From: Oceanicoccus sagamiensis
GTDB taxonomy: Bacteria; Pseudomonadota; Gammaproteobacteria; Pseudomonadales; Dasaniaceae
Assembly: GCF_002117105.1 (NCBI RefSeq)
Contig: NZ_CP019343.1
Location: forward strand, 3,224,001-3,288,000
DNA: 64,000 bases
Direction: 5' to 3'
Below, piece by piece: positions 12,541-20,358 of this stretch. Made by a program: the position numbers and the translations under genes. The notes under the pieces were generated by a model. That model made no database searches, was not told the DNA's origin, and was given only the letters and a program-made list of their open reading frames with translations. Within the stretch, counting starts at the first letter, position 1. Each line of letters opens with the position of its first letter.

Positions 12541-12882
12541 ATGTCTATGTCTAATAAAACGTCAAACAAAACCCAAATCGCAGCTGCTCTAGGTGCTGCA
12601 TTCCTTGCAACTTCAGTTGCTCCAATCGCATCTGCTGATGCCAACCCGTTTGCAGCAACTCAGCTTTCCGCTGGTTATGACCTGGCCAACTACGGCGCCC
12701 ACGAAGGTAAATGTGGCGAAGGTAAGTGTGGTGGTGACAAAGCCGAGAAAGAAGGTAAGTGTGGCGAAGGTAAGTGCGGTGGTGATAAAGCCGACAAAGA
12801 AGGTAAGTGCGGTGAAGGTAAATGTGGCGGCGATAAAGCCGGCAAAGAAGGTAAATGTGGTGAAGGTAAGTGTGGTGGCTAA
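12541..12882 (+). CDS. HvfA-type Cys-rich exported precursor with eight EGKCG motifs
   Basis: A 113-residue protein with a signal peptide (residues 1-32, cleavage near ASA/DAN), a short linker, then a 16-residue unit repeated three times plus a partial unit. It carries EGKCG eight times, with Cys at 58, 63, 74, 79, 90, 95, 106 and 111. The EGKCG signature is that of the HvfA precursor of Haemophilus influenzae, in which a DUF692/MNIO enzyme converts motif cysteines into copper-binding oxazolone/thioamide groups; the related bufferins (BufA) also bind copper. The next two genes encode exactly that enzyme and partner, so a ribosomally made, post-translationally modified periplasmic metal-binding product is a well-supported inference. 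GGAG precedes the ATG. The underlying DNA is a tandem 48-bp repeat. Confidence 0.88.
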   Translation: MSMSNKTSNKTQIAAALGAAFLATSVAPIASADANPFAATQLSAGYDLANYGAHEGKCGEGKCGGDKAEKEGKCGEGKCGGDKADKEGKCGEGKCGGDKAGKEGKCGEGKCGG

Positions 12883-12903
12883 GCATTACGCTTAACACTC
12901 CCG

Positions 12904-12938
12904 CAAGAGGTCAATGCACTCGCTGTATTGGCCTCTTG
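12904..12938 (+). terminator. Hairpin between precursor and enzyme genes (possible attenuator)
   Basis: The arms CAAGAGGTCAAT (12904-12915) and ATTGGCCTCTTG (12927-12938) form a 12-bp RNA stem with one U-G wobble and an 11-base loop, followed by TCATTTT. It lies directly after the precursor stop codon. Only four Ts follow, so partial termination or mRNA 3'-end stabilisation is more likely than full termination. Either would give much more precursor than enzyme mRNA. Confidence 0.65.
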
Positions 12939-12971
12939 TCATTTTAGAAGCCCAGCCTTTATAGTTAGCTT

Positions 12972-13820
12972 ATGAATGATTCATTAAAACTCAACACGGC
13001 AGGCCTTGGTTTGCGCCGTGCCCTGATGCAACCTCTGGCAGACTTGCCCGATGGTGCCCTCGACTTTATGGAAGTCGCCCCGGAAAACTGGATTAACCTC
13101 GGTGGCCGGTTGAAGAAACAGTTTCGACAATACTCTGAGCGCTATCCAATTCATCTACACGGTTTGTCACTCAATATTGGTGGTGTAGCACCGCTGGATG
13201 AAGAGTTGTTACAATCGATCAAAGCGTTTATGGACGAGCATCAATGTCCTATCTATACCGAGCATCTCACCTACTGCGGTGATGATGGTCATCTCTACGA
13301 TTTAATGCCCATTCCCTTTACCGAAGAAGCCGTTAAGCATGTCGCTGAGCGGGTAAAGCGAGTGCAGGACGTATTGGGCCGGCGCATCGCGTTGGAAAAT
13401 GCTTCTTATTATTGTGCGCCTGACCAGCAGATGTCAGAGAGTGACTTTATTAATGCGGTGTTAGCAGAGGCAGATTGCGACCTTTTGTTAGATGTGAATA
13501 ATATCTATGTAAATAGCATTAACCACAGCTATGACCCCTATCAGTTTTTAACCAGCCTACCACTGCAAAAGGCGCGCTATATTCATATCGCAGGTCATTA
13601 TGATGAGGCTGAAGACCTGCGGGTAGATACTCATGGGGCTGATGTGATTGACCCGGTTTGGGATATTCTAAAAGCCGCTTACCAACACTGTGGCCCATTA
13701 CCGACGCTATTAGAGCGTGACTTTAATTTCCCTGCAGTGGAAGCACTGATGGCGGAAGTGGCGATGATTCGCAGTATTCAGGCCGAATCAAAAACAGTGC
13801 CAAAGGCGGTTAATCAATGA
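12972..13820 (+). CDS. DUF692 / MNIO multinuclear iron oxidative enzyme (HvfB/BufB type)
   Basis: A 282-residue TIM-barrel protein of the DUF692 (PF05114) family. The conserved metal-site residues can be followed: E34 (FMEVAPENW), H61 and H63 (HLHG), E97-H98 (YTEHL), E142 (ALENASYY), D174 with N176-N177 (LLDVNNIYVN), H205 and H209 (YIHIAGH), D219 and H221 (DTHG) and E248 (LLERD). Family members hold two or three iron ions and oxidatively modify cysteines of small precursors. The start has only a weak ribosome-binding site. The gene overlaps the DUF2063 partner by 4 bp. The substrate is very probably the EGKCG protein encoded just upstream. Confidence 0.93.
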   Translation: MNDSLKLNTAGLGLRRALMQPLADLPDGALDFMEVAPENWINLGGRLKKQFRQYSERYPIHLHGLSLNIGGVAPLDEELLQSIKAFMDEHQCPIYTEHLTYCGDDGHLYDLMPIPFTEEAVKHVAERVKRVQDVLGRRIALENASYYCAPDQQMSESDFINAVLAEADCDLLLDVNNIYVNSINHSYDPYQFLTSLPLQKARYIHIAGHYDEAEDLRVDTHGADVIDPVWDILKAAYQHCGPLPTLLERDFNFPAVEALMAEVAMIRSIQAESKTVPKAVNQ

Positions 13821-14566
13821 GTCTGGATACCGTACAGCGCCAGCTTGCCTCCCATATCCGCAACCCCGAAAAAGTGGCTGGCCCAGAGGGCCTTGAACCA
13901 CGTCGTCTAAAAATCTATCAGGATCTGTTTTACAAAAATATAGAAAACTTTATCGCCAATGGTTTCCCCATATTGCGCAGCCTGATTGCCGATGACCCAT
14001 GGCATCAAATGGTCAGGGACTTTATGGTCCACCATCAGTGCCATACGCCGTATTTTTTGGAAATCAGTCAGGAGTTTTTACTGTATTTACAAAACCAGCG
14101 ACAAGCTCAGGCCACTGACCCTCTCTTTATGCAGGAGTTGGCTCACTACGAGTGGGTAGAACTGGCGCTGGATGTGGCTGATGAAGATGTAGCCAGCTTC
14201 GATGGTGATACAGAAGGGGATCTGCTAGCGGGCTTACCGCAGGTTTCACCGCTGGCCTGGTCTCTGGCTTACCAGTTTCCGGTGCACAAAATCGGTGTGG
14301 AATATCAGCCTACCGAAGCCGCAGAACAGCCCACTTTTCTGATTGTTTACCGTAATCGACAGGATCAGGTAGGTTTTATGGAGGCTAACTCAGTTACTGC
14401 CCGATTATTGGAATTACTGCAAGAAGAGGGCGCGCATTCAGGCGAGCAAGTATTGCAGCAAGTGGCGCAGGAAATGCAGCACCCAGACCCTCAGCAGGTC
14501 GTGGCGGGAGGCTTGGCGATTCTTCAGCAATTGCAGTCTCTGGATATCATTCTGGGCACAAAATAG
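13817..14566 (+). CDS. DUF2063 partner protein (HvfC/BufC type)
   Basis: A 249-residue protein with the N-terminal DUF2063 domain (about 8-100; LASHIRNPE, RLKIYQDLFYKNIENFIANGFPILRSL) and a C-terminal region with LARLLELLQEEG-like helices. DUF2063 proteins bind the leader or core of MNIO precursors and present them to the DUF692 enzyme. Translational coupling to that enzyme through an ATGA overlap supports complex formation. No DoxX-like membrane gene (the fourth member, HvfD, of the H. influenzae operon) follows; the next gene is mlaA after a 169-bp gap. Confidence 0.9.
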   Translation: MSLDTVQRQLASHIRNPEKVAGPEGLEPRRLKIYQDLFYKNIENFIANGFPILRSLIADDPWHQMVRDFMVHHQCHTPYFLEISQEFLLYLQNQRQAQATDPLFMQELAHYEWVELALDVADEDVASFDGDTEGDLLAGLPQVSPLAWSLAYQFPVHKIGVEYQPTEAAEQPTFLIVYRNRQDQVGFMEANSVTARLLELLQEEGAHSGEQVLQQVAQEMQHPDPQQVVAGGLAILQQLQSLDIILGTK

Positions 14567-17858: not shown

Positions 17859-18302
17859 CTAACCTAATACGTCCAGCTTGGCCTTAATAAACTGGCTGTG
17901 GGGCAGGTAAATCAAGTCTGCTATTTTGCGAATCAAGTGATCTTCATACTTACTGATCTCACCATCTGCAATCGCCACCTGCCATAACATCTTCACCAGC
18001 TCAAAGCGCTGCTCATTAGAATAATCATCTTTAATCAAATTGGTAAATTGATACAAAGACGTTGCATCCTGATTTTCCTGTTCAGCAAGATCAACCAGCT
18101 CGGCCAGTTGGCCATCACTTAAATCAAAAGTCTTCTTCAGTGCAGCTTCAATCGCTGCCTGTTCTTCGGGTTCTCGCTGATAGTCAGCGCGGCTTAATTC
18201 AATTAACAGGGCCGCCGCAGCCAGCTGAATCTTACACTGCTGATCGTCACTACTTTTTAACGATAACTCCGCCGAGAAAAACGCTTTAATAGACGCTAAC
18301 AC
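17859..18302 (-). CDS. TerB-family protein
   Basis: A 147-residue all-helical cytoplasmic protein matching the TerB/DjlA-N fold, with acidic loop signatures ELSRADYQREPEE and QVAIADGEISKYEDHLIRKIADLI. TerB proteins are named after tellurite resistance, but isolated copies next to tal are common in gammaproteobacteria and have no proven resistance role. It converges with the STAS gene (6-bp gap), and its start lies 18 bp from the 104-bp repeat array, so its upstream region is the array itself. Confidence 0.85.
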   Translation of the reverse strand: MLASIKAFFSAELSLKSSDDQQCKIQLAAAALLIELSRADYQREPEEQAAIEAALKKTFDLSDGQLAELVDLAEQENQDATSLYQFTNLIKDDYSNEQRFELVKMLWQVAIADGEISKYEDHLIRKIADLIYLPHSQFIKAKLDVLG

Positions 18303-18320
18303 GAATACTAACTCCTAATC

Positions 18321-19360
18321 GTAGGTTGGATTATAATCCACCTTTCTATAAAAACATTCCCGGTTCATATTGCAAGGTAGGGCGGTGGAATATATTCCAC
18401 CCTACGGAATTGTGCTTCCTAATCGTAGGGTGGATTATAATCCACCTTTCGATAACAACATTCCCGGTTCATATTGCAAGGTAGGGTGGTGGAATATATT
18501 CCACCCTACGGTATTGTGCTTCCTAATCGTAGGGTGGATTATAATCCACCTTTCGATAACAACATTCCCGGCTCATATTGCAAGGTAGGGCGGTGGAATA
18601 TATTCCACCCTACGGAATTGTGCTTCCTAATCGTAGGGTGGATTATAATCCACCTTTCTATAAAAACATTCCCGGCTCATATTGCAAGGTAGGGCGGTGG
18701 AATATATTCCACCCTACGGAATTGTGCTTCCTAATCGTAGGGTGGATTATAATCCACCTTTCGATAACAACATTCCCGGTTCATATTGCAAGGTAGGGTG
18801 GTGGAATATATTCCACCCTACGGAATTGTGCTTCCTAATCGTAGGGTGGATTATAATCCACCTTTCGATAACAACATTCCCGGTTCATATTGCAAGGTAG
18901 GGTGGTGGAATATATTCCACCCTACGGAATTGTGCTTCCTAATCGTAGGGTGGATTATAATCCACCTTTCGATAACAACATTCCCGGTTCATATTGCAAG
19001 GTAGGGTGGTGGAATATATTCCACCCTACGGAATTGTGCTTCCTAATCGTAGGGTGGATTATAATCCACCTTTCGATAACAACATTCCCGGCTCATATTG
19101 CAAGGTAGGGTGGTGGAATATATTCCACCCTACGGTATTGTGCTTCCTAATCGTAGGGTGGATTATAATCCACCTTTCGATAACAACATTCCCGGCTCAT
19201 ATTGCAAGGTAGGGTGGTGGAATATATTCCACCCTACGGTATTGTGCTTCCTAATTGTAGGGTGGATTATAATCCACCTTTCTTTAAAAATATTCCCGGC
19301 TCAAATTGCAAGGTAGGGTGGTGGAATATATTCCGCCCTACGGTATTGTACGGGGGTGAG
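18321..19360. repeat. Ten-unit tandem array of a 104-bp double-palindrome repeat
   Basis: Ten consecutive units with an exact 104-bp period (unit starts 18321, 18425, 18529, 18633, 18737, 18841, 18945, 19049, 19153, 19257). Each unit has palindrome A (GGTGGATTATAATCCACC), a spacer with CATTCCCGG, palindrome B (GGTGGAATATATTCCACC flanked by GTAGG and CCTACG), and a spacer ending GTGCTTCCTAAT. Inner units differ at only about four or five positions (for example CGATAACAAC or CTATAAAAAC, GGTTC or GGCTC, GGGTGG or GGGCGG, GGAATT or GGTATT). The first unit (GTAGGTTGG) and last unit (TCTTTAAAAAT, AAATTG, TTCCGCCC) are the most divergent. The array lies between tal and terB in the direction of their transcription. 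It appears to be an amplified REP element. Confidence 0.97.
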
Positions 19361-19370
19361 TTTGGTTTGT

Positions 19371-20321
19371 TTAAGCGCTGAGTAACTGCTCAAGCTTAAT
19401 TTGGTCAATGGTGAAATTGCGAATACCTTCAGCCAGTTTCTCTGTTGCCATGGCATCTTCATTCATGGCCCAGCGGAATGCCTGCTCAGAGTTGTCAGGT
19501 TTGGCAATGGCTTCACCGGTATTGTCGGTACTAAGCTTGCGCTCAAGAGTGCCATTATCATTAGCCAGCTCTTCCAATAATCCGGGGCTAATGGTTAGTC
19601 GGTCGCAACCGGCCAGTTGTTCAATTTCCCCTATATTTCTAAAGCTGGCGCCCATAACCACGGTTTGATAGCCATGCTGCTTATAAAAATTATAAATACG
19701 GCTGACAGATAAAACCCCCGGATCTTCTGCCGCAGTATAATCAGACTGATCACTATTGGCCTTATACCAATCCAGAATACGGCCGACAAACGGCGAGATT
19801 AAAAACACACCTGCCTCAGCACAGGCTGCGGCTTGAGCAAAACCGAACAGCAGCGTCAGGTTACAGTTAATTCCTTCTTTCTCTAACACCTCAGCTGCTT
19901 TAATACCTTCCCAGGTGGAGGCAATCTTAATTAATACTCGGTTGGCCTCAATGCCGGCTTCGGCATAAAGGCCAATTAACTTACGTGCCTTTTCAATGGT
20001 CGCTTCAGTATCAAACGAAAGGCGAGAATCTACCTCGGTAGAAATCTTGCCGGGAATAATCTTCAAAATTTCACAGCCAATGGCCACCGCCAATTTGTCA
20101 CTGCAATTAGCCACTTGTTGTGCTTTATCACCGCCTTGCTGCTGTGCCCAGGCTTTGGACTCAGCCACTAAATGGGCATACTGGGGAAGCTGTGCTGCTT
20201 TTAATAACAGCGATGGGTTAGTTGTGGCGTCCATAGGCGTAAAGCGCTCAATGGCTTCAATATCACCTGTATCGGCCACAACATCGGTCATACCTTTTAA
20301 CTGATCCAGCTTACTACTCAT
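19371..20321 (-). CDS. tal: Transaldolase
   Basis: A 316-residue class I transaldolase of the TalB type. The motifs [17 protein letters not shown] (about 28-44), [13 protein letters not shown] with the Schiff-base lysine, [11 protein letters not shown] and [15 protein letters not shown] are intact. It transfers dihydroxyacetone units between sugar phosphates in the non-oxidative pentose phosphate pathway. Length is typical. A degenerate half-REP lies 14 bp upstream of its start and the tandem palindrome array begins about 10 bp after its stop, so its 3' mRNA end probably falls in strong hairpins. Confidence 0.96.
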
Positions 20322-20334
20322 TTAAATTTACTCC

Positions 20335-20358
20335 GTAGGGTGGATGACAACCCACCAA
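20335..20358. repeat. Degenerate half-REP element
   Basis: GTAGGGTGGATGACAACCCACC-like half element (one palindrome with mismatches in the core) in the tal-dusA gap. It shares the GTAGGGTGGAT end with the dispersed pairs, so it is probably a decayed copy. Confidence 0.65.

Follow-up and report, generated by a model that had tools for sequence, protein, structure and literature searches.

Tandem arrays of repetitive extragenic palindromic (REP) sequences that carry flanking DNA are already described in excerpts from Bertels and Rainey 2011 (PMC3116915) and Di Nocera 2013 (PMC3733652). In Pseudomonas fluorescens SBW25, the former excerpt reports a REP-associated tyrosine transposase (RAYT) with clusters of REP doublets forming hairpins (REPINs) beside it, the largest ordered cluster comprising 4 REPINs and the largest REP arrays 12 REPs. 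The GTAG REP superfamily, as excerpted from the latter, combines a GTAG tag, a short stem-loop and head-to-head dimers, with large clusters that are tandemly reiterated together with flanking DNA. For Escherichia coli, excerpts from PMC8266576 and PMC2817692 describe bacterial interspersed mosaic elements (BIMEs), in which inverted REPs often occur in consecutive tandem copies, and the transposase TnpAREP. Here we consider a 64,000-nucleotide stretch of the Oceanicoccus sagamiensis chromosome (the window; NZ_CP019343.1, positions 3,224,001 to 3,288,000), which contains an array of ten 104-bp units (18313..19349 in window numbering, no strand assigned) in the intergenic space between tal and a terB-like gene. 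We are confident that it represents GTAG-type REPs arranged as a tandem REPIN/BIME array, in which a REP pair landed in the tal-terB gap and was then duplicated in place. Apart from its size, it is an unremarkable representative of an established repeat class.

As in SBW25, a RAYT gene has REP clusters beside it, but the REP sequence differs and the array is larger, with ten pairs and 20 REPs. REP pairs in this genome, with their tags on the outside, correspond to the REPIN layout of the PMC3116915 excerpt and to the head-to-head dimer of PMC3733652; by tag and palindrome the REP is of the GTAG type, although it could not be assigned to one of the 24 families listed in the latter. Tandem inverted REPs and a homologous transposase (PDB 4er8) are shared with E. 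coli, whereas the REP sequences differ and the linkers are array-local in the six arrays of this genome that were compared. The first-pass annotation had held that REPs are usually single or paired and that the array is unusual; the former is true of most REPs, but the latter must yield to the tandem arrays with flanks in print.

Architecture of the array and its REP family

Tandem Repeats Finder (TRF) returned the array as one row (18313-19349, period 104, 10.0 copies, 97% matches, 0% indels, score 1906), bearing out the proposed ten-copy array of paired palindromes. A unit comprises two REPs set head to head plus a linker, and the 20 palindromes alternate strictly between + and - at spacings of 63 and 41 bp. 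The outermost tags start at 18321 and end, with the last CTAC, at 19341 (genome coordinate 3243341); an end at 19360, as first annotated, lies about 11-19 bp too far. The first + REP (18321..18342, + strand) consists of a GTAG tag and a palindrome with one degenerate stem base, the core following the tag in the array units being ATTATAAT. The first - REP (18384..18405, - strand), whose core is AATATATT and which closes on the right with CTAC, sits 63 bp on from the + REP, as it does within each unit; both recur every 104 bp. From the - REP to the next + REP runs a 19-bp linker (the first at 18406..18424, unstranded) made up of 8 bp resembling the tal side, 3 bp, and 8 bp resembling the terB side. 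Units 1 to 10 differ from the consensus at 4, 1, 2, 4, 0, 0, 0, 2, 2 and 11 positions, units 5, 6 and 7 being identical. The expectation that edge units would be the most divergent is clearly borne out by unit 10 alone (19249..19349, unstranded), unit 1 being tied with unit 4. Adjacent units are more alike than when their order is shuffled if all ten are considered (p 0.017), an effect driven mainly by the edges; within units 2-9 alone it is not significant (p 0.11).

The REP pattern, allowing up to 3 mismatches, was sought across the window's own genome (one contig of 4,472,079 bases, completeness 100) with the reversed pattern as control. Since 972 matches (505 + 467) were found against 0 for the control, the palindromes are not due to chance. 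As the palindrome is near-symmetric, raw matches of this kind include certain sites twice, once per strand; in a chromosome sample of 1,664,000 bases (37%), 391 raw matches gave 296 distinct REPs after overlaps on both strands were merged. Within this sample the REPs fall into 114 clusters, of which 77 are pairs, and neighbours at most 400 bp apart are arranged head-to-head in 121 cases, tail-to-tail in 46 and the same way in 15. Pairs mostly carry their GTAG tags on the outside. The 109 pairs outside the window array are spaced at 37-60 bp (98 at 42-49 bp, 64 at 48 or 49 bp), and the 20 REPs of the window array are the most of any array sampled. An orientation of REPs by replichore, suggested by forward matches only at 0-0.75 and 3.03-4.47 Mb among the matches listed, was ruled out by 32 exact + and 24 exact - REPs between 0.75 and 3.03 Mb in the sampled stretches.

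A search of the genome for a REP-associated tyrosine transposase, proposed as a check, produced one. The single Y1_Tnp gene (contig 1512319-1512834) scores 201 bits against the corresponding NCBIfam model, NF047646 (cut-off 80), and matches the solved TnpArep chain PDB 4er8 with E 8.8e-45. REPs of the window-array family flank it on both sides, and clusters of 5 and 12 REPs lie within about 3 kb; on each side of the lone gene stands a REP array (chromosome positions 1510901-1516151; L001, L059).

These features place the array in its class. The palindrome has an unpaired GTAG end, a high genome copy number and, in the window array, an intergenic location, as GTAG-type REPs do; the basic unit of two REPs in inverse orientation, together with a cognate RAYT that has matching REPs on both flanks, is that of REPINs and BIMEs; and the inclusion of local flanking DNA in the repeat unit is that of tandem REPIN clusters. 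The 63-bp spacing of the pair falls outside the 37-60 bp seen in the 109 other pairs. Spacing is not a defining feature in the excerpts cited above, and we treat this as variation within the class.

Evidence for growth in place

Other arrays in the genome, a further suggested check, were available for comparison. Nine more tandem REP arrays in the 37% sample, hand-picked from TRF rows and the cluster list, have periods of 41, 76, 89, 115, 142, 152, 164, 178 and 213 bp. One of them, with two copies, is entered here as 76 bp but reported by TRF as 79; excluded were an 81-bp row near 1510948 and, around 1134946 and 1510905, rows of 43-44 bp whose REPs are irregular. The annotation had named identical arrays scattered over the genome as evidence against any positional meaning: arrays are indeed many, but none identical to that of the window was found. 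Two of them (449810-450406, period 115; 2084888-2085106, period 41) consist, unlike the paired arrays, of nearly all single REPs in one orientation. A 19-bp stretch from a REP to the next GTAG is common to three arrays (the window array, 4457328-4457859 and 2084888-2085106), with differing sequences; this is either coincidence or a fixed distance.

Two lines of evidence tie the unit to its locus. Firstly, in a search that scored the best 40 of 299 first-look candidates, the full-length unit was matched at the window locus only (10 of 101 matches), the other 91 being partial and comprising REP parts with a few adjoining bases. Secondly, the linker can be read from both flanks. Its end agrees exactly over 8 bp with the terB-side (left) flank in eight of the nine linkers, while its start agrees exactly over 8 bp with the tal-side (right) flank in three; the remaining six, in which one early base differs, agree with that flank over 2 bp exactly and over 10 bp with up to 2 mismatches. 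With a unit unique to the locus and a linker derived from both local flanks, the array therefore very probably arose at this site, when a REP pair was duplicated together with its flanks. Across the six arrays compared, linkers have common words of at most 9 bp, and such locality implies that arrays grow in place. The annotation's reading of the array as REP elements in tandem is to this extent supported.

The setting of the locus in relatives was compared as well. The tal-terB gap measures 4-49 bp at all nine loci with a measured gap (7 distinct sequences), and at two further loci there is no in-frame tal stop ahead of terB; a pattern search of these 11 loci found no REP in the tal-terB region. 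Among the nearest named relatives of TerB are the marine gamma proteobacterium HTCC2143 (73%) and a Spongiibacteraceae metagenome-assembled genome (71%); the latter has the very same tal-terB sequence as a same-genus genome (L125/L113). We envisage that RAYT put a REP pair into a short gap of this kind, that the pair, taking with it about 8-10 bp from either flank, was then duplicated head to tail, and that slippage or unequal crossing-over raised the copy number while interior units stayed similar.

Several observations weigh against this account. Three linker bases match neither flank exactly, and the last linker fails the exact left-flank match. The atypical spacing of 63 bp raises the possibility that the pair is not a standard REPIN insertion. 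A lone REP pair at the tal-terB site was seen at none of the 11 loci in relatives, so that the intermediate step is missing. Among ten family genomes, moreover, a close RAYT match occurs in the window's own genome only, yet the same-genus genomes G004 and G005, which are many-contig or smaller assemblies, hold 65 and 70 REP matches (own genome 972, the other seven 0-4).

It is also conceivable, if rather unlikely, that RAYT itself built the array, by single-strand cleavage at C|T beside the REPs and rejoining, and not by slippage or unequal crossing-over. TnpAREP cuts at CT 5' or 3' of a REP (excerpt of PMC8266576), a CT is present in the window-array linker where the two flank-derived parts meet, and two arrays flank the RAYT gene; however, the linker joint is one base off a simple C|T joining, the joint of the 89-bp array lies elsewhere, and the outer flanks of the 164-bp array have a common direct repeat (read by eye), which fits recombination. 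As proof of RAYT action the C|T joint was rejected: it is suggestive for the window array and not for the 89-bp array.

Hairpins, helical phase and possible function

Read in the tal-to-terB direction, the RNA of one unit is predicted to fold at -39.7 kcal/mol (z -5.1; none of 200 shuffled sequences did as well), its two REPs forming a single long hairpin. Because each unit could fold in this way in a tal-terB transcript, any physiological effect would most likely be post-transcriptional, with the 3' end of tal stabilised and the coupling of tal to terB loosened; a polar or stabilising effect would also be plausible from the general REP literature. A scan of 18200-19480 found one promoter-like site against 4.1 expected and one terminator-like site against 1.3 expected, which speaks neither for nor against such signals. 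A site-specific function of the array need not be assumed. A hypervariable length switch, with whole units gained or lost through RAYT cleavage at C|T and the extension of the tal transcript into terB governed by the hairpin count, seems to us very improbable.

The 104-bp period had been given meaning as about ten helical turns, and one alternative is a selected, helically phased binding platform for gyrase, IHF or a nucleoid protein that requires the 104-bp register. Distances of 104, 63 and 41 bp in the window array are indeed all near whole helical turns, and the excerpt of PMC3733652 names E. coli REPs as targets of gyrase. Yet no phase is shared by the ten array periods (41-213 bp; Rayleigh p 0.88 for a turn of 10.4 bp and 0.99 for one of 10.5 bp), the pairs outside the array cluster at 42-49 bp, most of them at 48 or 49 bp, and no relative examined has REPs at the tal-terB site. 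As periods differ and linkers are array-local, neither the 104-bp period nor its helical phasing is special, and such a platform is hardly credible. An assembly artefact, whether a wrong copy number or a false array, is extremely unlikely: in its favour are the identity of units 5-7 and an array length beyond that of a short read, but the genome is one contig of completeness 100, seven of the ten units differ from the consensus and many different arrays occur in the same genome.

Neighbouring features and wider meaning

Both genes bordering the array lie on the - strand, with tal, encoding transaldolase (19371..20321; NCBIfam TIGR00874 and Pfam), upstream and the terB-like gene (17859..18302; Pfam PF05099) downstream. 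A degenerate REP with 3 mismatches (20335..20356, + strand) lies between tal and dusA. Elsewhere in the window, a trio of genes (12541-14566) encodes a small protein, an enzyme of the MbnB/TglH/ChrH family (PF05114) acting on ribosomally synthesised and post-translationally modified peptides (RiPPs), and a DUF2063/NGO1945_C protein. The small protein has repeated EGKCGEGKCGGDKA motifs encoded by a 48-bp tandem repeat (12703-12878). The trio probably forms an HvfABC-type RiPP operon related to copper or another metal. Long tandem repeats free of REPs, probably coding, occur at chromosome positions 2241959-2246905 (126 bp x 22.7 and 237 bp x 6.5).

What the locus adds is a genome rich in REPs, with a single RAYT and, in the 37% of the chromosome sampled, at least ten tandem REP arrays. 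The varied periods of these arrays argue against a phasing requirement; established knowledge of REPs is unaltered.
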